Origin: Acidobacteriota bacterium
GTDB lineage: Bacteria; Acidobacteriota; Terriglobia; Terriglobales; Acidobacteriaceae
Assembly (NCBI GenBank): GCA_021778845.1
Contig: JAJYBU010000005.1
Location: forward strand, 62,001-126,000
Reading direction: 5' to 3'
DNA: 64,000 nt
Positions 44,352 through 64,000 of the stretch are shown here, piece after piece; positions within the stretch are counted from its first letter, which is position 1, and each line of letters begins with the position of its first letter. A program made the position numbers and the translations under genes. A model generated the notes under the pieces. It was not told the DNA's origin. It made no database searches and worked only from the letters and a program-made list of their open reading frames with translations.

Positions 44352-44449
44352 AGCATGGCGAGCATTGCAGTGTCTACCGGTTCTACTCCACGAGAACGGC
44401 ATCCTCAAACGCACCCATGGTCAGCGACCAGCGCTTCCATGGTGGTGGT

Positions 44450-44628
44450 GGCAGGCCGGTCTTCGGACTTTGGGCTGCCTACTCTGTTGCCGCTTCCCAT
44501 CTCTATCAAGACAGTGCGTTGGCTTGCGCCATGCAACATTTCGTTCCCATCACCGCTGCGGGACAGCGCCGGAATTACACCAGCTTCCCGTTTAACAGAC
44601 CCCTTCGCAGAGGCCTGACCTGCACATG
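44450..44628 (-). ncRNA. Cobalamin riboswitch of metE
   Basis: On the minus strand the aptamer shows the conserved order: GGGAAGCTGGTGTAATTCCG, GCGCTGTCCCGCAGCGGTGA, a CGCACTG segment, GATGGGAAGC, then AGCCCAAAGTCCGAAGACCG. The GCAGG near 44622 pairs with CCTGC near 44451 as P1. A TAAGAT -10 box (44632-44637) puts the transcript start at the aptamer edge. Confidence 0.93.
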
Positions 44629-44758
44629 GGTATCTTACACGGGGAAGGATGGACCAGCCGTCCGTCCCAACCGCGCGCGTGAGGCTGGAAGGTGACGTTG
44701 GGGAGTGCAAGTACAGGGTCGCCCTGTTGCTGATTTCCACACATGCCTTGCAGGCTTC

Positions 44759-44787
44759 TTGACACGGAAGTGCGACCTATCTACATT
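44759..44787 (+). promoter_or_regulatory. Promoter of the nrdD riboswitch/operon
   Basis: TTGACA (44759-44764), 17-nt spacer, TACATT (44782-44787). Predicted start about 44794, immediately before the aptamer. Confidence 0.75.
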
Positions 44788-44795
44788 TAGTAGCG

Positions 44796-44964
44796 CAACG
44801 GTCCCCCGGATGCACAACATCTGGGGCTAAGAGGGAAGTTGGTTCAAGCCAACGCTGCCCCCGCAACTGTAAGCGAAGAGCCGCCATCCGCGCATGCCAC
44901 TGCCCCATTTGGGTGGGAAGGCTGGATGGTTGCAGCGACCCGCGAGCCAGGATATCTGCCGTTG
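44796..44964 (+). ncRNA. Cobalamin riboswitch of the nrdD operon
   Basis: Conserved blocks in order: AGAGGGAAGTTGGTTCAAGC, CGCTGCCCCCGCAACTGTAA, GCCACTG, GGGTGGGAAGGC, and CGCGAGCCAGGATATCTGCC. CAACGG (44796-44801) pairs with CCGTTG (44959-44964) as P1. It is read away from the metE riboswitch and lies 122 nt before the nrdD start. Confidence 0.93.
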
Positions 44965-44981
44965 TCATTTGAACGTCCACG

Positions 44982-45086: not shown

Positions 45087-47105
45087 ATGTCCAGTACGAC
45101 GATTCACCAGCCCTCATCCGTTATCAAGCGCAGCGGCGCCACTGTATCCTTTGACGGCGATAAGATTCGTTCGGCCGTTGAGCGCGCCGGCAAGGCAACG
45201 GGAGCTTTCGACGCTGCGGAAGCCCAGCTTCTTACGAGCCAGGCCCTAAAGGTGATCGCTCACCGCTTCCACGACCGCTCGCCTCATATCGAGCAAGTAC
45301 AGGACGTCGTTGAGCAGGTGCTAATTTCGGCCAATCACTTTTCTACAGCTCGTGCTTACATCGTCTACCGCGAGCAACGCTCCCGACTCCGCAGCGACCA
45401 GAGAACGATCATCGATGTGGCTGCGTCGATCAACGAGTATCTGGACCGCGCTGACTGGCGTGTCAGCGCCAATGCCAATCAGGGATATTCGCTCGGCGGG
45501 CTGATCCTGAATATCAGCGGCAAAGTCGTTGCCAACTACTGGCTCTCGCACGTTTACACGCCCGAGATCGGCCGCGCTCATCGCGAGGGCGATCTGCATA
45601 TCCACGACTTGGACATACTGGCCGGCTACTGTGCCGGGTGGTCCTTGCGAACGTTATTGCTCGAAGGCCTCAATGGCGTCCCCGGAAAGGTTGAAGCCGG
45701 GCCGCCGAAGCACCTTTCCAGTGCCATCGGCCAGATCGTCAACTTTCTTGGCACGCTACAGAACGAGTGGGCCGGAGCACAGGCCTTCAGCTCCTTTGAC
45801 ACCTACATGGCTCCGTTCCTCCGCAAAGACAACCTGTCCTATGAAGAGGTGCGCCAGAGTATCCAGGAGCTGATCTACAACCTGAACGTGCCTTCGCGCT
45901 GGGGAACGCAGACGCCCTTTACGAATCTGACCTTCGACTGGACCTGTCCTGAGGACCTACGCGAGCAGCAACCGGTTATCGGCGGCGAGGCCATGCCGTT
46001 CACCTACGGAGACCTGCAGGCGGAGATGGATACGATCAATCGCGCATACATTGAAGTGATGACGGCCGGAGACGCCAAGGGGCGCGTCTTTACCTTTCCG
46101 ATCCCCACCTACAACATCACGCCTGATTTTCCATGGGAGAGCGAAAACACCGATCTACTGTTCGAGATGACCGCCAAGTACGGCCTGCCCTACTTCCAGA
46201 ACTTCATCAACTCCGATCTAAAGCCCAACATGGTGCGCTCGATGTGCTGCCGCCTGCAGCTCGATCTGACGGAGCTGCTCAAACGTGGCAACGGTCTATT
46301 CGGTTCGGCCGAACAGACTGGCTCTGTTGGCGTAGTCACGATCAACTGCGCGCGTCTTGGCTATCTGCACCGTGGCGATGAGGAGGCACTGCTCTGCCGT
46401 CTCGACGAGTTGCTGGAGATTGCTCGCGCCAGCCTTGAAATCAAGCGCAAGGCCATTCAGCGCCACATGGACAATGGCTTGTTTCCCTATACCAGGCGGT
46501 ATCTCGGGACGTTGCGCAACTTCTTCTCCACGATTGGCGTGAACGGCCTCAACGAGATGATTCGGAATTTCACTTCCGATGCTGAGGACATCACAACCGA
46601 ACGCGGTAGCGCGCTCGCCCTGCGGTTCCTCGATCACGTGCGGACGCGCATTGTCCTTTTCCAGGAAGAGACAGGTCATATGTATAACCTGGAGGCGACG
46701 CCCGCCGAAGGCACAACCTATCGCTTCGCACGCGAAGACCGCAAACGCTTCCCGGACATTTTGCAAGCCGGTACAACCGACGAGCCCTACTACACCAATT
46801 CCAGCCAGCTTCCTGTCGGCTTTACTGACGACCCTTTCGAGGCCCTAGCGATGCAGGAAGCACTGCAGCAGAAGTACACCGGCGGAACCGTGCTCCACCT
46901 CTACATGGGCGAGCGCATCAGCACGGCTGCGGCATGCAAAAAACTTGTACGCCGTGCTCTTGAGAATTTCCGCCTTCCATACATCACTGTCACGCCCACA
47001 TTTTCTATCTGTCCCAAACACGGCTATCTCTCTGGCGAGCATGTCTTTTGCCCAAAGTGCGATAGCGAAATTCTGGCTCGAAAAGAACTAGTAGCCCAGG
47101 CATAG
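45087..47105 (+). CDS. nrdD: Anaerobic (class III) ribonucleoside-triphosphate reductase, large chain without glycyl-radical tail
   Basis: 672 aa. N-terminal ATP-cone (VIKRSGATVSFDGDKIRSAV), then the reductase barrel with the RSMCCRLQL cysteines, and FFSTIGVNGLNEMIRNFTSD typical of NrdD. The C-terminus has FSICPKHGYLSGEHVFCPKC, the zinc-site region, and then stops. In ordinary NrdD this is followed by the RVxGY loop bearing the radical glycine; here that loop is encoded by the next gene at 47132. GGAG precedes the ATG. Expression should be blocked by B12 through the riboswitch. Confidence 0.92.
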   Translation: MSSTTIHQPSSVIKRSGATVSFDGDKIRSAVERAGKATGAFDAAEAQLLTSQALKVIAHRFHDRSPHIEQVQDVVEQVLISANHFSTARAYIVYREQRSRLRSDQRTIIDVAASINEYLDRADWRVSANANQGYSLGGLILNISGKVVANYWLSHVYTPEIGRAHREGDLHIHDLDILAGYCAGWSLRTLLLEGLNGVPGKVEAGPPKHLSSAIGQIVNFLGTLQNEWAGAQAFSSFDTYMAPFLRKDNLSYEEVRQSIQELIYNLNVPSRWGTQTPFTNLTFDWTCPEDLREQQPVIGGEAMPFTYGDLQAEMDTINRAYIEVMTAGDAKGRVFTFPIPTYNITPDFPWESENTDLLFEMTAKYGLPYFQNFINSDLKPNMVRSMCCRLQLDLTELLKRGNGLFGSAEQTGSVGVVTINCARLGYLHRGDEEALLCRLDELLEIARASLEIKRKAIQRHMDNGLFPYTRRYLGTLRNFFSTIGVNGLNEMIRNFTSDAEDITTERGSALALRFLDHVRTRIVLFQEETGHMYNLEATPAEGTTYRFAREDRKRFPDILQAGTTDEPYYTNSSQLPVGFTDDPFEALAMQEALQQKYTGGTVLHLYMGERISTAAACKKLVRRALENFRLPYITVTPTFSICPKHGYLSGEHVFCPKCDSEILARKELVAQA

Positions 47106-47131
47106 CCCACGGACTCACCGAAAGGAACCTC

Positions 47132-47314
47132 ATGCAAACTGCATCTTCCACGCTTGTCGAACAAAAAACCATCACTCTCGTTGACTCGGAGCGCCAGCCC
47201 TGCGAGGTCTGGACTCGTGTCATGGGATACTTCCGTCCGGTCTCCTCCTTCAATCGCGGCAAGCAGGGTGAGCATCATGAGCGGACGTGCTTCCTTGAAT
47301 CAAAGTGCAACTAG
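47132..47314 (+). CDS. Stand-alone glycyl-radical subunit of NrdD
   Basis: 60 aa with its own ribosome-binding site (AAAGGA, 5 nt before the ATG), 26 nt after the nrdD stop. Residues 24-55 read CEVWTRVMGYFRPVSSFNRG then KQGEHHERTCF, which is the missing C-terminal glycyl-radical loop of NrdD; the radical glycine would be Gly32 in RVMGY. The first 23 residues are unlike NrdD and may dock onto the large chain. It overlaps nrdG by 38 nt in another frame. Comparable in idea to the spare-part protein GrcA of pyruvate formate-lyase. Confidence 0.85.
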   Translation: MQTASSTLVEQKTITLVDSERQPCEVWTRVMGYFRPVSSFNRGKQGEHHERTCFLESKCN

Positions 47315-47984
47315 GCTGAAGGTGGGCGGCCTCACACATCTTTCTACTTGTGACTGGCCGGGCGAGCTCACTGCGACCGTCTTCTGCCAGGGCTGCGCCT
47401 GGGATTGTCCTTACTGCCACAATCCCGGGTTGCGTCCAGCGACGGCTGAAGGCCTGATCTCGTGGTCTTCGGTCCTTGACTTTTTGGGTAGCCGGAGAAA
47501 TCTGCTCGACGCCGTCGTTTTCTCTGGCGGCGAACCTACGCTCCAGTCAGCCTTGCTCGATGCTATCGGTGAGGTTCGCGCACTCGGTTTCCGCGTGGGG
47601 CTGCACACGACCGGCATGGCGCCCGACCGCTTCGCAGCTTTGCTGCCCTTGCTTGATTGGGTCGGCTTTGATGTTAAGGCACCGTTCGCTACCTATCCAC
47701 GCATCACCAACGTCGAGCGAAGTGGAGACAACGCTCTGAAAAGCCTACGGAGTTTACTTGCCAGCTGTGTTTCCTATGAGGTCCGCACGACAGTACACCC
47801 TTCACTGCTCAGCCCCGCCGACATGCTTGAGCTAAAAGCACAGTTGCTCGAACTCGGAGTAAAACATTTCGTCGTCCAGCAATTTCGCATGCAAGGCGCA
47901 CTTCCCGGCCGGCTTCCTGCTGCCGCAGGAATCGTACTTCCTCAGGACTATTGCAGCGGGTTCGTGCACTTCGACACGCGCTAG
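47277..47984 (+). CDS. nrdG: Anaerobic ribonucleotide reductase activating protein NrdG (radical SAM)
   Basis: 235 aa from the ATG at 47277. The radical-SAM motif is CAWDCPYC (C40, C44, C47), preceded by TCDWPGELTATVFCQG. VVFSGGEPTLQ binds SAM, and DVKAPFATYPRITN follows. It places the radical on the glycine of its partner, here the separate 60-aa protein. The start lies inside that small gene, so translation is coupled. An IS481 remnant begins directly after the stop. Confidence 0.9.
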   Translation: MSGRASLNQSATRLKVGGLTHLSTCDWPGELTATVFCQGCAWDCPYCHNPGLRPATAEGLISWSSVLDFLGSRRNLLDAVVFSGGEPTLQSALLDAIGEVRALGFRVGLHTTGMAPDRFAALLPLLDWVGFDVKAPFATYPRITNVERSGDNALKSLRSLLASCVSYEVRTTVHPSLLSPADMLELKAQLLELGVKHFVVQQFRMQGALPGRLPAAAGIVLPQDYCSGFVHFDTR

Positions 47985-51537: not shown

Positions 51538-53037
51538 ATGTTCCATGTGGAGATATATGGGCGGGTACGTCGTGCGGTTCGAGTTGAGGGCCGGAGTCAG
51601 CGAGCGGTAGCCAGAGAGTTTGGGTTGTCGCGGGATACGGTACGGAAGATGCTGCAGTACGCTGTGCCGCCAGGCTACCAGCGGCAGCAGCCGATCAAGC
51701 GGCCCAAGCTGGGGCCGTGGCTGGGCGTGATCGACGCCATTCTGAACGATGACAAGCAGAGGCCAGCCAAGCAGCGGAACACGGCCAAGCGTATCTTCGA
51801 TCGTCTAAAAGACGAGCACCAGTTCCCCGGTGGCTACAGCATCGTGAAGGACTACGTGCGCTCGGCGATGCTACGCGGTCAGGAGATGTTCGTTCCGCTG
51901 ACGCATCCGCCGGGCGAGGCGCAGGCGGACTTCGGCGAAGCCGTGGTCGTGATCGCTGGCGTTGAGCAGAAGGCGCACTATCTGGCCATGGACCTGCCGC
52001 ATTCGGATGATTGCTTCGTTATGGCGTTTCCGGCGGAGACGACGGAGGCATTTCTGGAAGGCCATGTGCGAGCCTTTGCGTATTTCGGCGGGGTTCCCAC
52101 GCGGATTCTCTACGACAACACGAAGATCGCCGTGGCGAAGATTCCAGGTGGCGATGAGCGACAGCGTACACGGGCCTTCTCGGAGTTGCAGAGCTATTAT
52201 CTCTTCGCCGATAAGTTCGGACGACCAGCCAAGGGCAACGATAAGGGCAAGGTCGAGGGCCTGGTCGGTTATGCACGACGCAACTTCATGGTTCCGATTC
52301 CTCGCTTCAACAGTTGGGACGAGTTCAACGCATACCTCGAAGTGCAGTGCCGCAAGCGACGCGAGCGGCGGCTGCGCGGGCACTCGGAGACGATCGGCGA
52401 ACGCTTCGAGCGCGATCGCGCGGCCATGTTGCCGCTGCCCGCGACTCCGTACGAAGCCTGCGAGAAGATCACGGTGCGCGTTACTTCGCTGTCGCTGGTT
52501 CGTTATCGCGGCAACGACTACTCGGTGCCAACCGAGTACGGACACCGTCAGGTTCTGGTGAAGGGCTTCGTGCATGAAGTAGTGATTGCCTGCGCCAGCG
52601 AGGTCATCGCTCGACACCAGCGCAGTTATGAACGCGAGACGGTAGTCTTCGATCCGCTGCACTATCTGGCGCTGCTCGAACAGAAGACGCGGGCGCTCGA
52701 TCAGGCCGCTCCACTCGCCGGCTGGAAGTTGCCGGACTGCTTCGCCGAACTGCGCCGTCTGCTCGAAGCCCGGCTCAACAAGCACGGCAGCCGCGAGTAT
52801 GTGCAGGTGCTGCGGCTGATGGAGACCTTCGCGCTCTCCGAAGTAACGCACGCCATCGAAGATGCCTTGAAGTTGGGCACGATCAGCTTCGACGCAGTGC
52901 GTCATCTCATGCTGTGCCGCATCGAACGAAGGCCGCCGCGGCTGGATATGCAGAACTATCCACACCTGCCGCTGGCCCAGGTGCACACCACGCAGGCCGC
53001 CGACTACATGAGCCTGCTGGTCGAGGTGTGCGCATGA
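51538..53037 (+). CDS. istA: IS21 transposase IstA
   Basis: 499 aa. N-terminal HTH (RAVAREFGLSRDTVRKMLQY). DDE triad positions: QADFGEA, ILYDNTKIAV and KGKVEGLVGY. C-terminal part binds DNA ends and IstB. The stop overlaps the istB ATG (ATGA), the standard IS21 coupling. Confidence 0.95.
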   Translation: MFHVEIYGRVRRAVRVEGRSQRAVAREFGLSRDTVRKMLQYAVPPGYQRQQPIKRPKLGPWLGVIDAILNDDKQRPAKQRNTAKRIFDRLKDEHQFPGGYSIVKDYVRSAMLRGQEMFVPLTHPPGEAQADFGEAVVVIAGVEQKAHYLAMDLPHSDDCFVMAFPAETTEAFLEGHVRAFAYFGGVPTRILYDNTKIAVAKIPGGDERQRTRAFSELQSYYLFADKFGRPAKGNDKGKVEGLVGYARRNFMVPIPRFNSWDEFNAYLEVQCRKRRERRLRGHSETIGERFERDRAAMLPLPATPYEACEKITVRVTSLSLVRYRGNDYSVPTEYGHRQVLVKGFVHEVVIACASEVIARHQRSYERETVVFDPLHYLALLEQKTRALDQAAPLAGWKLPDCFAELRRLLEARLNKHGSREYVQVLRLMETFALSEVTHAIEDALKLGTISFDAVRHLMLCRIERRPPRLDMQNYPHLPLAQVHTTQAADYMSLLVEVCA

Positions 53038-53834
53038 GCGACGATACTTTGAGCACCGCCGCTCATACCTCCGACACGCCGCAGTTGCTGTTGGAACATC
53101 ACCTGAAGGAACTGCGTCTGCCCACCATGCTGCGCGAGTACGATCACATCGCACGGCAGTGCGCGGTCGAGCAGGTCGACTATCAACGTTACCTGCTGCG
53201 CATGACCGAGCTGGAGTTGCTGGACCGCGAACGCCGCGCCACCGATCGCCGCATCCGGCAGGCGAAGTTCCCGGTCGTCAAGACGCTGGACAGCTTCGAT
53301 TTCCTCGCCATGCCTTCAGTCAACAAAACCCTGGTGCTCGAACTGGCGCGTTGCGAGTTCCTCGCCCGCCGCGAGAACGTGCTGCTGCTGGGCAACAGCG
53401 GCACCGGCAAGACCCACATCGCGCTCGCGCTCGGCCTGGCTGCATGCCAACAGGGACATCGCGTACGCTTCACCACCACAGCCGCTCTGGTCAGCGAGCT
53501 GATCGAGGCCCGCGACGACAAGAAGCTGCTCCGTTTTCAGAAGCAGATCGCCAGCTACGAACTGCTCATCGTCGACGAGCTGGGCTTCGTGCCTCTGTCC
53601 AAGACCGGAGCCGAACTGCTCTTCGAGATGCTCAGCCAACGCTATGAACGCGGCTACACCCTGATCACTTCGAACCTGCCATTTCAAGAGTGGACCGAGA
53701 TACTCGGCTCGGAACGGCTCACCGGAGCCCTGCTCGACCGCCTCACCCACCACGTCCACATCCTGGAGATGAACGGCGACAGCTACCGCCTCAAGCAAAG
53801 CCGCCGTAAACGAAACCCGCCTTCAAGACGCTGA
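53034..53834 (+). CDS. istB: IS21 helper ATPase IstB
   Basis: 266 aa. AAA+ ATPase related to DnaC: Walker A GNSGTGKTHIA, Walker B LLIVDELGF, sensor TSNLPFQEW. It selects targets and stimulates the transposase. Complete and coupled to istA. Confidence 0.95.
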   Translation: MSDDTLSTAAHTSDTPQLLLEHHLKELRLPTMLREYDHIARQCAVEQVDYQRYLLRMTELELLDRERRATDRRIRQAKFPVVKTLDSFDFLAMPSVNKTLVLELARCEFLARRENVLLLGNSGTGKTHIALALGLAACQQGHRVRFTTTAALVSELIEARDDKKLLRFQKQIASYELLIVDELGFVPLSKTGAELLFEMLSQRYERGYTLITSNLPFQEWTEILGSERLTGALLDRLTHHVHILEMNGDSYRLKQSRRKRNPPSRR

Positions 53835-56591: not shown

Positions 56592-59500
56592 ATGAAAAAT
56601 ACAGATCAGGTGATGATGTCGGGTCGATGGCAGGGCGCAGTCTCTCGCGGATGGTCGATTGCGATATTAGCGTTTTGCTGCCTGCTGATAGCCAGCGATC
56701 GTTGCATAGCGCAGGATATGTCTACCGGTTCGCTAAACGTAACAGTTGAGGACACACAGGGAGCGTTGATCCCGGGGGCGCAACTCGTGTTGAGGGATCT
56801 TGGAACCAGCGATGTGCATAGTGCGACCAGTCGCACAACTGGTATCTCGGTCATCCCATTTCTCAACCCTGCGACCTACAGTCTCACCGTCAGCAGGCCC
56901 GGCTTCAGTACCAGCAAGTTCGATAAGATCACGATTCAAACCAATCAGGTCACCAACCTGACGGTAAAGCTCAAGGTGGGCGCAACGAGCGAGACTGTGA
57001 CAGTGAACGGTGACAACAGCCCCATCTTCGACACCACGGGGAATACCCTCTCGACAACCTTGGATATGAAACAGGTACAGGATCTGCCGACTGCCGCACG
57101 CGATGTTTTCTCGCTTGCCTTCCTGGTCCCGGGTGCCGTTGACGACAACTTCAACAACCTACCTGGTGGCGCGGTCGATACGAGTACGAACGGATTCTCG
57201 ACGATGATCAATCGGAATAAGAGCGGCGGCTTCGATACCGACGGCCCGAGCACCACCCAGCGTCTCGAGGATACCCAGGAGATGACAGTCGAGACCAGCG
57301 AACTAGATGCATCCAAGGGCGGTACGTCAGCCATGGACATCGGCTTTCTAACCCGTCGCGGCACAAACAAGTTCCATGGAGAGGTGTTTGAGGACTACCG
57401 CAGTGAAGCAATGAATGCCAATGGGTGGAACAATAATAATGCGGGGCTACCCCGAAATCTGCTGATCATCAATGACTTTGGCGGTGATCTGGCTGGACCA
57501 CTGCTCAAAGATAAGATCTTCTTCTTCGCGAGCCTTGGCAACTATCGTCAGCCACAGGAAGCCTTGGTGCAGACATCAATTGCCACCCCACTGGCTCTCT
57601 CTGGTATCTATACGTATGCGAACGCAACGACCAACGCAATCGAGACAAGAAATGTGCTGCAGACGGGAGCGAGCGCGGGATGCTCGACCTGCACAGCGAA
57701 CATCAACTCCATCATCGCAACTGATCTAGCGAATATTCAGAGCGCGTCCGGGCTGTCTGGCACAAGCATCTCGCCTCTCGATCTGAACCACAACCTGCTG
57801 AACTTTGAGAATAAGGGATCGATCATCGAACGGTTCCCAACTTTGCGGCTCGACTACAACGTATCGCAGAAGTTTCGGCTGACAGGCGCAGTGAACGAAT
57901 CGAACTTCTACTACATTAATACGGGGGCTCCGCCCTATCCTGGCCCGCTGTTCGCCAACCAGGCATTCAGTGACAAAGCCCGAAACTACCAGGTAGTTGC
58001 CGGTTTTGACTGGACAATCAAGCCCACGCTCGTAAGTGCCTTTCGCGTGGGGTATCTATATACAGGCCTTGTGTACAACTCGCAGGGCATCGGCACTCCC
58101 ACCGCAAGCATGATGCAGCAGGGCGACCTTGCGTTTGGTTTCGGACTCAACAGCGGGGTTAATGGTTTCGCTCAGCTCAAAGGCGGCTACCTTTATCCTG
58201 TGACGAGCATTAAGGATGACAATACGTGGTCGCATGGCTTGCATAACATTTCCTTCGGCGCTTCTGGCGCTACCGAGGTTGACCACTACTACAACAACCA
58301 GTTTGTTCCCTATGTAGGCGTGAGTGCGATTGCGCAAGGCGATCCGGTGCAGACGTCGCTCGATAATTCGGTCGCAGACGGCCCGACTAGTGCAGCTCCG
58401 GATGTTGAAGGCCTCTACGCAACGCTGACTGGCCGAATGAATTACTACAGCCTCGGCGAGTTCGTAAACATTGCCACGCAGCAGTTTCAACCCGGAGTAA
58501 CGTTCGATCTGCATGAGCGGCTGACGCAGGCAGCGGTATTCGTGCAGGACGCTTGGCGTGCGATGCCCACTCTGACTTTGAACTACGGCCTGCGCTGGGA
58601 CTTTACAGGTGCATCCAAAGATGAAACCGGCTACTACACACACCCAACCATCAACGCTCTATGGGGGCCTTCCGGTGTAGGGAACATCTTTCAGCCCGGG
58701 GTGTTGACTGGCGACCAGAATCCGGTCGAGGGTCCGCACGCGGAGGCGTACGCGCCGACCTATGTTCACCCTGAACCCACCGTAGGCTTCGCGTGGAATC
58801 CACGCGATGTGAGTTCTATGTGGGGTAGGCTACTGGGACAAGGTAGGACGGTGATCCGCGGTAGCTTCACACTGAAGAACTATACCGAAGGCGCGCAGAA
58901 CTTCTGGAGCATAGGCTCGAACAGTGGCGCAAACTTCAATACTTACTACTATGCAGACCCGGTCGCTCCACAACCTGGTACCACTCCTTCGCCGGGCTTC
59001 TACAACGCGGGATCAGTTGTCCTCGGCGGAGCACTTCCAGCCCTGCAATCCACTTCGCCCTCGCCGTTCCAGCCCATCATTCCTGAGTCCTACCAGACCT
59101 TCAGCGGAACGGGCTACACGACCTTCAACCCTAACATCAAGCAGCCCTATGTTGAATCGTGGTCGTTTGGCATCCAGCGCAAATTAACTTCCAACGACGT
59201 TCTCGAAGTCCGCTATGTAGGCAACGTGGCGAAGGATCAATGGCTCCTCGAAAACTTCAATGAGGTTAATATCTTTGAAAACGGCTTTTTGAAGGAGTTC
59301 CAAGGAGCACAAGCAAACCTCGCTGCCTCTGGAGGATCGACTTTCCAAGGCGCGAATCCGACGCCGATCATGGACCAGGCTTTCCAGACCTCTGGCCTCG
59401 CGGCAAACTACACCAATGGTACGTTCATCAACTATGTGAAGGAGGGACAAGCTGGTGCCTTCGCCAGTGCGCTGGCTGGGAACTCCACGTATCTCTGCTC

Positions 59501-60458
59501 GCTGATCGGTGCTAACTTCGGTCCGTGCGCAGCGCAGGGAATTCCCGGAAATGGAAGCTATCCCATCAACTTCTTTCAGGAGAACCCATATGCTGCCGGT
59601 GCGGGCAATTCGGAGTTGACCAACGCTGGCTACTCAAACTACAACGGGCTTCAGGTAGACTTTCGTCAGAACTCCGTGCATGGTCTTCAGTTCGACGCTA
59701 ATTACACGTACTCGAAGTCGCTAGGTGTTAGCGTTCAGGGCAGCACGGCACCCGGCTACTATGGCGGACGTAGCAATAGTGCACCCGGTTTTTACACCTT
59801 ACGCGACAAAGGGCTGAACTACTTCCCGAGTGCCTTCGATGTTCGCCACGTCTTCCACGCCAGCGGTACATATGACTTTCCATTCGGTCATGGCAGGGCG
59901 TTCCTGAATCAGAACCCGATCGCCAACTCGATCGTAGGTGGTTGGACCCTAGGTGCGATTGTAACGTGGCAGAGCGGCGAACCACATCTGTTCACAGGTG
60001 GTACCAGCACCTTCAATGGCAACGATTCAGGAATCACACTCACGGGCGTAACCCCGAAGCAATTGCAGCGACAACTGCGGCCGCGAGTTGTGCCCGGCAA
60101 GCCCTATGTGAGTCTGTTTGATCCGAAGTACATCAATCAGAGTAACGGGCAGGCAAACACCGCATATATCAGTCCTGCATCTACGCCAGGCCAGTTCGGT
60201 CGGCTGCTCTGGCTTCATGATCCCAGCAACTTCAATGCAGACCTTTCCCTCACGAAGCTGGTCCCAATTGCGAAATCTATCAATCTGAAGTTCCAGGGAG
60301 TGTTTCTGAATGCGTTCAATCATGTGGCCTGGGTAGGTATGGATACCGGAGTGCAAGACTATACATTCGGAACGACATCGACGACGTCTGAAAATGCAAT
60401 ACTTAACTCGAGTAACGGGGGAAGGCAGATCGAGTTGCGCGCGAACGTGATGTTCTAA
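56592..60458 (+). CDS. Oar-like TonB-dependent receptor with carboxypeptidase-regulatory N-domain
   Basis: 1288 aa; GGAGGAACCAAGGAT before the ATG. Signal peptide (about 1-40, SIAILAFCCLLIASDRCIAQ). Residues about 45-125 form the CarbopepD_reg domain (GSLNVTVEDTQGALIPGAQL). Plug domain about 130-270, then a large barrel ending in a C-terminal Phe (IELRANVMF). This is the Acidobacteriota-type receptor, usually for glycans or other large substrates. A strong terminator follows, so it is monocistronic. Confidence 0.92.
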   Translation: MKNTDQVMMSGRWQGAVSRGWSIAILAFCCLLIASDRCIAQDMSTGSLNVTVEDTQGALIPGAQLVLRDLGTSDVHSATSRTTGISVIPFLNPATYSLTVSRPGFSTSKFDKITIQTNQVTNLTVKLKVGATSETVTVNGDNSPIFDTTGNTLSTTLDMKQVQDLPTAARDVFSLAFLVPGAVDDNFNNLPGGAVDTSTNGFSTMINRNKSGGFDTDGPSTTQRLEDTQEMTVETSELDASKGGTSAMDIGFLTRRGTNKFHGEVFEDYRSEAMNANGWNNNNAGLPRNLLIINDFGGDLAGPLLKDKIFFFASLGNYRQPQEALVQTSIATPLALSGIYTYANATTNAIETRNVLQTGASAGCSTCTANINSIIATDLANIQSASGLSGTSISPLDLNHNLLNFENKGSIIERFPTLRLDYNVSQKFRLTGAVNESNFYYINTGAPPYPGPLFANQAFSDKARNYQVVAGFDWTIKPTLVSAFRVGYLYTGLVYNSQGIGTPTASMMQQGDLAFGFGLNSGVNGFAQLKGGYLYPVTSIKDDNTWSHGLHNISFGASGATEVDHYYNNQFVPYVGVSAIAQGDPVQTSLDNSVADGPTSAAPDVEGLYATLTGRMNYYSLGEFVNIATQQFQPGVTFDLHERLTQAAVFVQDAWRAMPTLTLNYGLRWDFTGASKDETGYYTHPTINALWGPSGVGNIFQPGVLTGDQNPVEGPHAEAYAPTYVHPEPTVGFAWNPRDVSSMWGRLLGQGRTVIRGSFTLKNYTEGAQNFWSIGSNSGANFNTYYYADPVAPQPGTTPSPGFYNAGSVVLGGALPALQSTSPSPFQPIIPESYQTFSGTGYTTFNPNIKQPYVESWSFGIQRKLTSNDVLEVRYVGNVAKDQWLLENFNEVNIFENGFLKEFQGAQANLAASGGSTFQGANPTPIMDQAFQTSGLAANYTNGTFINYVKEGQAGAFASALAGNSTYLCSLIGANFGPCAAQGIPGNGSYPINFFQENPYAAGAGNSELTNAGYSNYNGLQVDFRQNSVHGLQFDANYTYSKSLGVSVQGSTAPGYYGGRSNSAPGFYTLRDKGLNYFPSAFDVRHVFHASGTYDFPFGHGRAFLNQNPIANSIVGGWTLGAIVTWQSGEPHLFTGGTSTFNGNDSGITLTGVTPKQLQRQLRPRVVPGKPYVSLFDPKYINQSNGQANTAYISPASTPGQFGRLLWLHDPSNFNADLSLTKLVPIAKSINLKFQGVFLNAFNHVAWVGMDTGVQDYTFGTTSTTSENAILNSSNGGRQIELRANVMF

Positions 60459-60486
60459 ACGGAAGCATCCAGGACACTACCAACAC

Positions 60487-60526
60487 AACGATGAGTCGCC
60501 TGCAAACTAGCAGGCGACTCATCGTT
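60487..60526. terminator. Strong bidirectional terminator
   Basis: Arms AACGATGAGTCGCCTGC (60487-60503) and GCAGGCGACTCATCGTT (60510-60526), 17 bp perfect, 6-nt loop, followed by TTAATATTT. It separates the convergent receptor and glycosidase genes. Confidence 0.9.
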
Positions 60527-60579
60527 TAATATTTCGATCGAGACAGAAGGATATTACTTTGATGCTCAGTACGACTGCT

Positions 60580-62931
60580 CTATGCAAGTTGAGCGATTGC
60601 CTCAAAGCGTCGCTCGCTGCCTGGTCGTATGATGATCGCATCGTGATGCGGCCCTTCAAATTGCGCTGCGACACCATTGACCGCACAACTGCGGAGCGTA
60701 CGATCACGCTCTGCGCGGAACGTAATGTGTACGAAGTCAGGATGACCGCCGCGTTCCGGCAAGGTAATCGTGGCCACCAGCGTTTTAGGATCGCGACGTT
60801 CCAATCGATAATCTACACGTCCCCAGCGTGTCGGTGCGCTTGTGATCTCAATCGGTTTGCCAATCGCTATCCAATCGCGCGGAATCGCCCTTCCAAAGTG
60901 CAGACGATCTTCATCGAACTCCTCAAAGACCAGCATCCAGCGGACCAGCAGCGGAATGGTCTGCTGTGCTGGAATACAAAACAGCGAACCACGGCCTGTG
61001 ATCCCCGCGACCTCGCCTGCCGTCCAACTCCCGCGCGAGTGATTGTGATAGCGATGCGCATAGAGAAAAAGGATGTACTCTTCAATGCGGTTCAGTCGCA
61101 GCAACGTATGCGCATAGCCATACGAGATGAAGCCGAGAATATCGCGGCCATATGGGTTTGGCGGCTCTACGTTCGCTACAACGCCGAGCGTGGTAGCACC
61201 GTACGCACGCATACAGTCGATCACAGCATTTGCGTCCGCCTCCGGTAGCACATCCGGATGCAGCAACTCGATGTAGCAGCGATGGGCCCATGCCTGTTCG
61301 CTTGGATGATCCTTCATTAGCGATTCGCGAAAGGTAAGCTTCGCTCCAGGCAGCGGCGTAACATATGCCGGGGTTCGATCGCGCCAGGTGTTTGCCCGCA
61401 CGCTTTGCACAAGCGTCGCATGTAGCTGCTCGCTACGACGCATCCATTCTTCAATGAGCGGCTCAGCGCCCGCGAGCTTCATCTTCTTCCATGTAGCCGC
61501 GATCGCACGCCAACCGCGCACGGCGAACGCACTGTTGGCGAAGTACGGCTTATCCCACACAGCCGGATTCGGCATGAGGCAGGAATCAGACTCGCACCAG
61601 CCATGCAGGAGGCCATATCCGGCATCAGACGAAGGCAGATGCAGACTCTCGTCGTGCAGTCCTGCCAGTAGCGCCGCGGTCGCTTCGATCTTCTCACGAT
61701 GGCGAAATAGTAATGCTGTGTCGCCCGTGAGTTGCGCATAGCGAGCCACAAGAAAAAGCGTGAGGCCGAACTGAGCCGTTTCCGGGCCACGCATATTAAC
61801 CATGCCGACCGCGTTGGTGAAGTATGTAAAGTAATTGTCGAAAACCTCGCGTGCCTGTACGAAGCGGCCGCATTCGAGATTTGAATAAAGCGACATCGTG
61901 AAGGTATCCTGAAACCCGTCGTACTCCGAACCGTAATAGTCACGGTCTACGGCACCATACTTCGGGTACACGCCTCCTGGACGCACTAACTGCTCCTTCA
62001 CAAACGCATATCGAACCATATCGGCCCAGCTGGTGTCGGGCAGTGTCATCGACGCAAGATCATGCGTCTGCTGCTCCCAATACTCTGCGAACGCGAGCAT
62101 GCCGCGATAGAAATCTACAGCCTTCGGCTCCTGTCTGCGCCGCGTATATTCAGGATAGCTGTAGCCATACTGCACGCTAAGAATCGCCCCGTCGCGTATG
62201 TGTGCAGTTCGATGCCACGTCTGAACGATAAAGCGATCATGCGCGAGGACGTCACCAAATACAACAACCTCGAGGTAATCTCCGCCTTCGCTTGGAATTA
62301 CCTTGCGCACCCCTGGCATCCAGCCGCCGATAAGTCCTTCTTGGCGTTGATTCGCATTTTGCAAGTTGAGTTCTTTAAAATATTGCTGCGGATGATACGT
62401 GCGGGTGTTGCCTGCGGGAAACACAGGCATGGTGTCGCTACACTCACGTGTACCGACGATTGTGTTCCAGTCGGGACGAAAGCCCGGCTGATGTTCTTCG
62501 CTGTGGTCAGAATTCATCGGTGGAGCTGCGCGACGCACCTCGTCCTCGAGAGGATCGCCATGCGCTAGCAGTTTATCGGCGAGTAGATCCGCATCAGCCA
62601 TGCCAATTTCTTTTAACTCTAGGCCAAGATGTTGCGGGTCATCGTCGGAGAACGTAGCTTCTGCTGTCTTGCGCAGCACGCGTGCCGTACCCTTCGAGTT
62701 GACGTAGGTGAGCACGCCGTCACGTACGCGCAAGTCTTCATATACCGTCCAGGCCACCCCATCCTGGGTGAATGATGCAAGCCGCGTATGCCCCTCAATG
62801 GACACCACATCGGCAGCGATTAGCCCGCCGGTCGATGTCATCGAATCTATTGAAGCAACCCGGGCCGCCAGTGTATGCAGAGTCACCGTACTGGCCGTGA
62901 CACTCTTGATAAAGTCGCGCCTGTCCATCAT
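60580..62931 (-). CDS. Tat-exported (alpha/alpha)6-barrel glycoside hydrolase (MGH1-like)
   Basis: 783 aa; AAAGGA upstream of the ATG. Twin-arginine signal DRRDFIKSVTAS followed by a hydrophobic stretch. The middle is an (alpha/alpha)6 toroid with Trp/Tyr-rich loops: YYGSEYDGFQDTFTMSLYSN, GWCESDSCLMPNPAVWDKPY, HRYHNHSRGSWTAGEVAG. Acidic catalytic candidates lie in these loops. Best fit is the MGH1/GH63-like group; exact family not fixed. Probably acts outside the cytoplasm on glycans linked to the adjacent receptor. Confidence 0.75.
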   Translation of the reverse strand: MMDRRDFIKSVTASTVTLHTLAARVASIDSMTSTGGLIAADVVSIEGHTRLASFTQDGVAWTVYEDLRVRDGVLTYVNSKGTARVLRKTAEATFSDDDPQHLGLELKEIGMADADLLADKLLAHGDPLEDEVRRAAPPMNSDHSEEHQPGFRPDWNTIVGTRECSDTMPVFPAGNTRTYHPQQYFKELNLQNANQRQEGLIGGWMPGVRKVIPSEGGDYLEVVVFGDVLAHDRFIVQTWHRTAHIRDGAILSVQYGYSYPEYTRRRQEPKAVDFYRGMLAFAEYWEQQTHDLASMTLPDTSWADMVRYAFVKEQLVRPGGVYPKYGAVDRDYYGSEYDGFQDTFTMSLYSNLECGRFVQAREVFDNYFTYFTNAVGMVNMRGPETAQFGLTLFLVARYAQLTGDTALLFRHREKIEATAALLAGLHDESLHLPSSDAGYGLLHGWCESDSCLMPNPAVWDKPYFANSAFAVRGWRAIAATWKKMKLAGAEPLIEEWMRRSEQLHATLVQSVRANTWRDRTPAYVTPLPGAKLTFRESLMKDHPSEQAWAHRCYIELLHPDVLPEADANAVIDCMRAYGATTLGVVANVEPPNPYGRDILGFISYGYAHTLLRLNRIEEYILFLYAHRYHNHSRGSWTAGEVAGITGRGSLFCIPAQQTIPLLVRWMLVFEEFDEDRLHFGRAIPRDWIAIGKPIEITSAPTRWGRVDYRLERRDPKTLVATITLPERGGHPDFVHITFRAERDRTLRSCAVNGVAAQFEGPHHDAIIIRPGSERRFEAIAQLA

Positions 62932-62970
62932 GTTTCATCCTTTCGACCTTTTCGTTCGGCGGCACATAGC

Positions 62971-64000
62971 TTACGGATGTATTGGATGATCGCCATAGAA
63001 TTTCCAAGAGGCATGGAAATCAGCCGTCAACGTGCCATTCTCCATTTCCGCACGCAGCAGTTCGATGGGCATTGGACCCTCGTGCAAAATGGTGTCATGG
63101 AACTGACGATCGGTCATCTTGTGAGAATCAACAAGTTCATGATGTAGCTGCCGGAACTGCAATGCGCCCATCAGATATGCGCACTGATACAGCGGGCCTA
63201 CGGAGCCATCGAACGAGCGGCGTACTTCCGCAAGGTCATTCTCAGATTCGAAGCCCACATGGTCGATGAGATATTGCACGCACTGCTGCGCTGTCCATTT
63301 GCCGAGATGAAAGTTTATGGTGAAGATCACTCGCGCCGACCTGTGCATGCGCCATACCAGCGCGCCAATTCGCTCTTCAGGTGTCTTGTCGAAACCTTTG
63401 TCGTAATACAGCATCTCCCACCAGAACGCATTGCCTTCTCCCCAGAACGGCGTGTCGAACCGCAGCCGGTATGGACGATAGCGCGCATTCATATAGAACT
63501 GCAGAAAGTGGCCGGGGATCATCTCATGGAAAGCTGTCGCCCGTGCGAACGGGATATTGTTGCCACGCATACTCATCTCGCGCTGCTCATACGTCATGGT
63601 GTCGGTCGGGTAAGACACGCTGATCTCATCGCCTCCAGTGAAGAACGGATTCACTAATTGACGTTGAGGTGTCATCATCACCATCGTCCACGTCTCGTCT
63701 GCGAGTGGCGGTACGGTGACAAGATTGTTCTCCTTCGCGAAATTACTGCCTTCCACGACAAGCTTGCGGATGAGTTCGGGCTGCTCTCCGGGGGGCACAT
63801 GCATCTCCTTCACCTTCTCCACAGCCGCTTGCCAGTTGTCACCATAGCCCATCTCATGCGAGGCCTTCAGCATCTCCTTCAGACACCAGTCGTACTCGGT
63901 TTGCGCAATGGCAATGAGTTCTTCCGGCGTGTACGAAATCATGTTGTCAGCAAGCTCGTTCGTCAATGCCTGTCGACCCACCGGATCGCCGATGATCGTG
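62971..64000 (-). CDS. DUF885 metallopeptidase-like protein, 5' end cut by window edge
   Basis: At least 342 codons; the frame is open at the right edge so the N-terminus is missing. HEMIPGH in ATAFHEMIPGHFLQFYMNAR is a HExxxGH zinc-type motif; GEGNAFWWEMLYYDKG and the final GPMPIELLRAEM are typical of DUF885. Related proteins are secreted peptidases. It lies about 40 nt upstream of the glycosidase gene on the same strand, probably in one operon. Confidence 0.85.
   Translation of the reverse strand, partial: TIIGDPVGRQALTNELADNMISYTPEELIAIAQTEYDWCLKEMLKASHEMGYGDNWQAAVEKVKEMHVPPGEQPELIRKLVVEGSNFAKENNLVTVPPLADETWTMVMMTPQRQLVNPFFTGGDEISVSYPTDTMTYEQREMSMRGNNIPFARATAFHEMIPGHFLQFYMNARYRPYRLRFDTPFWGEGNAFWWEMLYYDKGFDKTPEERIGALVWRMHRSARVIFTINFHLGKWTAQQCVQYLIDHVGFESENDLAEVRRSFDGSVGPLYQCAYLMGALQFRQLHHELVDSHKMTDRQFHDTILHEGPMPIELLRAEMENGTLTADFHASWKFYGDHPIHP

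Follow-up and report, generated by a model that had tools for sequence, protein, structure and literature searches.

A putative two-chain class III ribonucleotide reductase with its glycyl-radical loop on a separate 60-residue protein

Ribonucleotide reductase is universal, and its class III form has been described as one catalytic chain with its own glycyl radical. Here we analyze an nrdD operon of an Acidobacteriota bacterium, contained in a stretch of 64,000 nucleotides of its genome that we call the window. The operon consists of nrdD, a small gene of 60 codons and the activase gene nrdG (Table 1). The original prediction, made from this DNA alone, held that NrdD is split here and that its radical loop has become a separate gene with its own ribosome-binding site. 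Our results agree with it. From the sequences, we consider it very probable that the large chain and the 60-residue radical chain are the two obligate chains of one class III ribonucleotide reductase.

The nrdD operon of the window

The family profile PF13597 (NRDD, 562 positions) is divided between two open reading frames (ORFs). It matches the large chain over positions 2-529 with 583.7 bits and the small ORF over positions 531-561 with 34.0 bits, the cut-off being 26.2 in both cases. Since the profile is shared out over both ORFs, together they make up one full NrdD. The RVxGY loop is not on the large chain, where the match stops at position 529; it sits on the separate ORF, in a motif series RVMGY...NxGK...E. 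The large chain ends in CPKHGYLSGEHVFCPKCDSEILARKELVAQA at a TAG stop (47103-47105), and the small ORF begins 26 nucleotides past that stop in another frame (offset 2). The most likely start of nrdG, picked by the upstream AGGGTGAG, is an ATG that lies inside the small gene, as had been predicted, with an overlap of 38 nucleotides.

The two larger products are assigned by their family models: the large chain scores 1139.6 bits against NF006126 (cut-off 548) and carries the ATP-cone PF03477 at 11-99, and the activase scores 199.2 bits against TIGR02495 (cut-off 131.15). Residues C642, H645, G646, C655 and C658 of the zinc site are invariant in 34 split large chains, and so are N129 and N131 of the presumed NxN flap. 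The finger loop SMCCRL would be the equivalent of SCCR, given as a T. maritima NrdD motif in a passage of PMC4493059. A structural model of the large chain (predicted local distance difference test, pLDDT, 76.7) has 8p28 as its best PDB match (E 6.7e-27), and its fold also matches the solved NrdD structures 4u3e and 4coj. A search of solved structures by sequence with the 60-residue query gave no true match.

Table 1. The nrdD operon and its leader, in coordinates of the window
Feature	Position	Strand	Remarks
nrdD, catalytic chain	45087..47105	+	672 amino acids; ATP-cone, barrel and zinc site, without glycyl-radical loop
Small gene, free-standing glycyl-radical protein	47132..47314	+	60 amino acids; PF13597 profile 531-561/562, E 1.7e-8
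nrdG, radical S-adenosylmethionine (SAM) activase	47277..47984	+	235 amino acids; TIGR02495 NrdG2, PF04055
Finger-loop cysteines C387-C388 (SMCCRL), candidate thiyl-radical site	46245..46250	+	invariant in 34 aligned NrdD chains
Zinc-site region CPKHGY...CPKC, residues 642-658	47010..47060	+	last conserved element of the large chain
AAGGA ribosome-binding site of the small gene	47122..47126	+	from sequence
Gly32 codon in RVMGY, putative radical residue	47225..47227	+	chemistry expected from NrdD homology
Cobalamin riboswitch aptamer, nrdD operon leader	44782..44977	+	Rfam RF00174, 124.6 bits, E 7.4e-31

Distribution and descent of the split

Among 61 related genomes (the window's included, with 27 others of its genus), five have NRDD, and all five belong to the window's genus. 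The other four are split in the same way; a single stop separates nrdD from the small gene, which follows in the same frame and has its own ATG codons. A read error joining two frames had been named as the case that would undo the prediction; because four genomes of the same genus and a far wider set show the split, it is not a sequencing error.

The wider set was assembled in several ways. A relative of the 60-residue protein is encoded in at least 479 of the 581 candidate stretches listed. A set of 83 loci (L041-L123) consists of the best 80 loci obtained by scanning one genome of each species with the small protein, plus three plasmid loci; candidates for the 80 needed one of six short query peptides, some of them within the conserved stretch. 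Because the small protein was the query, this set favours the split lineage, and whole-genome scans with the family profile therefore give fairer counts. The search that the prediction had called for, for NrdD lacking RVxGY beside a small protein that has it, found the split in 72 of the 83 loci. None is fused. A core of NrdD lies at most 900 nucleotides upstream in 70 loci, always as a separate ORF; L101 and L123 were missed by the core pattern and are split all the same. The surrounding sequence of the remaining 11 holds no NrdD, which is not firm for L119 and L051, where it starts only 44 and about 250 nucleotides before the gene. In L065 the large chain stops early, probably through a frameshift. 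A wider locus table, with redundant loci, has 119 split, 38 fused and five without a small gene. Of these five, L201 is really split (a pattern miss), L148 is a fragment next to an assembly gap, and in L164, L166 and L168 the gene has been relocated.

The phylum and family scans were read by profile coordinates. In Acidobacteriota (297 genomes), 51 genomes have NRDD and nine are clearly split (G000, G079, G115, G160, G176, G182, G268, G304, G308), while G138 is ambiguous and G077 and G284 are in pieces. In Pseudomonadota, the phylum of Parasutterella secunda (G357), 34 of 299 genomes have NRDD; 11 are split (G357, G369, G389, G416, G488, G512, G545, G577, G636, G661, G664) and the rest are one-chain by coordinates. 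In the family of G357, 37 of 61 genomes have NRDD and 35 have a split-type core with a small gene, both profile matches lying in one reading frame in G679 and G698. Besides the split enzyme, many members (G352-G358, G363, G365, G366 and others) encode a further NrdD that belongs to a different lineage and has one chain (profile 1-560, about 347-377 bits). In the family of an alphaproteobacterium from roe deer reticulum (G359), 48 of 49 genomes have NRDD and 47 have a core. No core there runs into the loop without a stop where this is visible; ten of the 47 have both matches in one frame, and G729, the only one of these ten to be translated, has a stop between core and loop.

The relatives in which the small gene follows nrdD in frame behind a single stop suggest another explanation, namely that one fused protein is still made, through stop-codon read-through or programmed frameshifting. 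Across the 70 measured loci, however, all three stops occur (TAA 27, TGA 31, TAG 12), and so do all three frame offsets (30, 17 and 23 for offsets 0, 1 and 2). An ATG with a ribosome-binding-site-like stretch is also usual, being found in 135 of 139 small-gene copies when the start is picked to maximise that match. Relocated genes, described below, bear on the same question.

It can also be asked whether the pair is simply decaying, the split being a frameshifted or truncated pseudogene. The window is indeed known from a single draft genome. Against decay stand the 72 split relatives and the motifs of the small protein: in a plain, motif-free alignment of the 79 distinct small sequences from the 83 loci, all 14 positions examined (C24, E25, W27, R29, G32, Y33, R35, P36, N41, G43, K44, E47, R51, F54) are invariant. 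The non-synonymous distance (dN) is below the synonymous distance (dS) in every bacterial small-gene pair compared, unlinked extra copies among them. The window's gene and five relatives have dN 0.07-0.30 against dS of at least 0.63, and L058 and L061, whose synonymous distance is about 1.4, encode identical amino acids over 56 codons. The small gene is under purifying selection, and decay has next to no chance of being the explanation.

A quick tree was built from 110 of 152 large-chain rows (near-copies dropped; long-branch warnings for L176, L192, L202 and L201). The main split clade has 77 rows, of which 72 are split, two relocated and three fused (L037; L015 with L029), with a support of 99 in the Shimodaira-Hasegawa-like approximate likelihood ratio test (SH-aLRT). 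Relatives in which the stretch is always fused were the other case that could have spoken against the prediction; with no fused locus among the 83 and three fused rows among the 77, the fused form was rejected as the rule. In the three fused proteins the zinc site joins the loop directly (CPTCEGEGRRQPCEVWTRVMGY in L037). Such one-chain relatives within a split clade provide a Rosetta-stone argument for docking of the two chains.

The fused proteins also help with a different reading of the large chain, in which it is complete alone, with the radical on Gly646 of the zinc site (CPKHGY), and the small protein has some other role. The invariance of G646 in 34 chains would suit this, and so would the Gly-650 reportedly named as radical site of the Cupriavidus necator H16 enzyme (see below), which by position corresponds to G646. 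Yet L037, L015 and L029 carry both CPxHGY and the RVMGY loop on one chain; hence the zinc-site glycine belongs to the knuckle of both forms. In addition, the loop residues are kept in all 79 distinct small proteins. We regard a radical on Gly646 as very improbable and retain the small chain as the radical subunit.

Splits are found elsewhere in the tree as well, in L184, L185 and L188, in L189 and in the E. coli-type branch (L176, and L177 by sequence). The two E. coli-type splits come with a different small protein (RRITGYLVGTLDRFN...). At least four changes between fused and split are forced by the starred branches, with long-branch warnings for some of the rows concerned. Horizontal transfer is suggested by the position of rows from Acidobacteriota, Actinomycetota, Verrucomicrobiota and Deinococcota (most of them metagenome bins), which are nested among those of Pseudomonadota.

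Small genes away from nrdD in bacteria and viruses

In three genomes (G665, G701, G678) an nrdG-like ORF directly follows nrdD and there is no RVxGY nearby. Each has a single short NRDD match (profile about 530-562), at a distance from nrdD: in G665 and G678 it lies on a different contig, and in G701 the two are 1.3 Mb apart on one contig of 2.33 Mb. G665 and G701 are 99.8% identical at this locus (L164 against L166), so that relocation in the three genomes represents one or two events; the tree needs two relocations and its starred branches force only one. With the small gene at another locus, fusion by read-through or frameshifting is excluded in these three genomes. Read-through, frameshifting and selenocysteine insertion were rejected as candidates on the mixed stops and frames together with gene relocation, and we consider production of a fused protein extremely improbable.

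Additional copies are a separate matter. The 11 loci without an NrdD neighbour all come from genomes that also encode a split large chain next to its own small gene (with an assembly gap interrupting the core of G353). Among the 61 genomes of the G357 family, 11 carry unlinked extra copies (G352-G358, G669, G676, G688, G711), and so do eight of the 49 of the G359 family (G359, G717, G719, G729, G732, G744, G754, G761), G352-G358 and G359 having been known as carriers before the family scans. G359 holds three. None was found in four comparison genomes (G363-G366), which had been chosen for a small gene beside nrdD. In L046, L051, L058 and L059 the extra copy adjoins the same gene, an amidohydrolase by eye. 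PF13597 was the only match of the four unlinked or relocated copies tested.

Relatives of the small protein are also present in viral sequences. A scan of IMG/VR with the window protein gave 32 records, and two more scans with phage copies added 48. No NrdD core accompanies the gene in 77 of these 80 records (loci L204-L235 and L240-L308). The first 32 have none within 3 kb on either side and none elsewhere by PF13597, save an 11.5-bit partial match in G771. Of the added 48, 45 are without a core; among these, G841 gave a partial match of 15.1 bits and G837 none to PF13597 at E 0.001. The three records with a core are G804, with a split pair of bacterial type, G825, and G799, whose small-protein match is the end of a core at the record edge. 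G825 (L290, a 145 kb contig) has two separate NRDD matches, at 59258-60655 and 62723-63127 with about 2 kb between them, and a small gene at 103133. In two of the 77 (G767 and G794; loci L207 and L234) the gene is at the record end, where a neighbour could be cut off. Because these viral records are often fragmentary and can include host DNA, a missing core is no proof.

Compared with PHROGs, 20 neighbour genes included members of portal, endolysin, holin, integrase, tail and helicase families; the neighbour of L307 had no match, and for the neighbours of L291 and L303 the only families matched are of unknown function. The small protein itself corresponds to a PHROG, phrog_4132, which is matched by the window protein (E 2.6e-9) and by nine phage copies. 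In INPHARED the window protein had two weak matches. One, MT835493.1, was rejected as a free small protein: it is a full-length fused NrdD. The other is in ANMV-1 (KP703175.1), the virus of an uncultured archaeon, and is a free-standing protein of 144 amino acids (L237, 2186-2620), annotated as the reductase. It combines a zinc-finger-like part with YSRIVGYLRPV...NKGK and is two genes from a prohead protease gene. Bacillus phage helicases that a phage copy matched at E 0.03-0.08 were set aside as apparent chance hits.

What might these copies do? They could serve host takeover as inhibitors or decoys, by occupying either the radical site or the activase. Their position near lysis, tail and integration genes would fit, and so would the 77 viral records without a core. 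A decoy, however, need not keep the radical glycine, and in a plain alignment of 68 distinct viral-contig sequences G32, Y33, N41, G43, K44, E47 and R51 are present in all 68 (C24 in 57). The known phage spare part, T4 Y06I, moreover works for pyruvate formate-lyase, according to part of PMC8683613. We consider decoys possible but unlikely, and think it somewhat more likely than not that the unlinked and phage-borne copies serve as spare radical subunits. In one phage group (L223, L226, L230, L231) CEVW has become VECW, the cysteine staying near the radical glycine. Eleven selected phage pairs show proportionally fewer amino-acid changes than synonymous ones.

Proposed mechanism, regulation and known counterparts

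In P. copri NrdD, residues 676-739 form a glycyl-radical domain with a zinc site, a buried loop with Gly711 and a surface tail, and this domain is mobile and disordered with dATP (both from parts of PMC11226230). The split point lies between zinc site and loop. Since zinc site and radical loop belong to one C-terminal domain in solved NrdD, the split cuts within a mobile domain. The large chain would then provide the ATP-cone, the catalytic barrel, the finger-loop cysteines and the zinc knuckle, and the 60-residue chain the rest of the glycyl-radical domain. The small chain may dock on the large one so that its RVMGY loop enters the barrel. NrdG, the product of the overlapping gene, would put the radical on Gly32, which would oxidise the finger-loop cysteine by hydrogen abstraction as in one-chain NrdD. 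If oxygen attacked the radical, the cut small chain could be lost and a fresh one could replace it. Large chains of this kind would most likely receive spare radical subunits from the unlinked and phage copies. Docking, the radical on Gly32 and the exchange of the oxygen-cut chain are all steps that we infer.

The replaceable radical part had already been proposed in the original prediction, and it gains support: unlinked extra copies and phage-borne copies speak for it, though the window's own genome has none. No second NRDD pair or match is present in that draft genome (3.77 Mb, 79 contigs, 89% complete), which does contain two PF02867 reductases of class I or II.

Several observations weigh against our interpretation. 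The small chain folded alone by AlphaFold2 has a mean pLDDT of 55.1, not a confident fold, which as a prediction is compatible with folding upon docking. Many of the genomes examined are metagenome bins. The window organism has a single small copy, and in the two families where extras occur 24 of 35 and 39 of 47 split-bearing genomes have no extra copy. With most genomes lacking one, exchange is not a general requirement. Finally, work of 1999 on the enzyme of Cupriavidus necator H16 reportedly gave a mass of 76.2 kDa and Gly-650 of the large chain as the radical site, which, if right, would place the radical outside the small chain.

The pHG1 sequence of this strain allows a comparison. It encodes an NrdD of 676 amino acids (76.19 kDa), a protein of 66 amino acids named 'nrdD' (WP_011154154.1, gene H16_RS32675) and an NrdG of 239 amino acids, in the same three-gene order as in the window. 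Judged from these sequences, the classical class III enzyme of C. necator (Alcaligenes eutrophus) H16 is split too. In its large chain, residue 650 is the zinc-site glycine, within CPTHGY. If the radical site was indeed assigned in this way, a zinc-knuckle glycine was probably mistaken for the radical site and the small gene overlooked, and the Gly-650 assignment deserves re-examination. In C. metallidurans the split is seen in L122, and a skipped gene number would fit a small gene in between. The literature on pHG1, as far as the text of PMC2864759 available here goes, speaks only of nrdD and nrdG; the small gene is annotated 'nrdD' and its role is unstated. The original warning that databases may contain short NRDD proteins was thus well placed: they are there already, under the NrdD name or as a phage family of unassigned function.

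The cobalamin riboswitch in the nrdD leader is one of a divergent pair in a single intergenic region (44437-44977), the other, on the minus strand (97.8 bits), preceding metE, a gene named by eye. A cobalamin riboswitch lies upstream of nrdD in nine of the 18 split relatives scanned (L043, L045, L049, L055, L064, L069, L071, L094, L123). L055 (4853-5052) and L094 (4833-5049) have a second one 3' of the small gene. For nrdDG of P. acnes such a riboswitch is already on record (a passage in PMC3848588). A search for FNR-type boxes gave 26 two-mismatch matches in the window, where about 19 are expected by chance, and none in the leader. Further along, two ORFs at 51538-53834 resemble, by eye, an IS21-type transposase and its helper ATPase.

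With one-chain NrdD (T4, E. coli, T. maritima, Prevotella copri) the system shares the barrel, the finger-loop cysteine, the zinc site, an RVxGY-type loop, NrdG and the ATP-cone that many of these have; what differs is that a second gene product carries the radical loop and tail. We know other small free-standing glycyl-radical proteins, GrcA/YfiD in a bacterium and Y06I in phage T4, both for pyruvate formate-lyase (part of PMC8683613). They belong to another family, and the window's small protein matches only PF13597 and not PF01228. GrcA/YfiD is a backup, whereas the small chain of a split NrdD is the only radical part; it has about 60 amino acids, against about 14 kDa for the GrcA/YfiD type. 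A spare part for pyruvate formate-lyase was rejected as the role of the window's protein, with no PF01228 protein in the organism's genome. A catalytic chain divided in two is also known from NrdJa/NrdJb, in this case a B12-dependent class II reductase (from part of PMC9669993). Reports of split phage genes concern introns, inteins and fragmentation of phage nrdD, in the portion of PMC3653736 available. Among the literature titles and abstract openings searched, with most subscription journals outside the search, none describes a split of NrdD or a spare part for it.

What does the split mean? A radical loop on a separate subunit of about 60 amino acids is found in nine of 51 Acidobacteriota and 11 of 34 Pseudomonadota genomes that bear NRDD, as well as in C. 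necator H16. For phrog_4132, a phage family listed as of unknown function, we propose one. The split enzyme is also a simple system in which to study a radical domain added in trans. A 2021 paper stated, in the part available, that only two spare parts had been validated, both for pyruvate formate-lyase, and that others for glycyl-radical enzymes were possible (PMC8683613). A split reductase with unlinked and phage copies makes such spare parts beyond pyruvate formate-lyase directly testable. We favour, with modest confidence, a diffusible and exchangeable radical subunit: a separate gene, extra spares in some bacteria, and copies, carried without the rest of the enzyme, in many phages and an archaeal virus that would re-arm the oxygen-damaged reductase of an infected cell without a new catalytic chain. 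If true, and we hold the chances to be somewhat better than even, this would be the ribonucleotide reductase counterpart of what T4 Y06I is for pyruvate formate-lyase.

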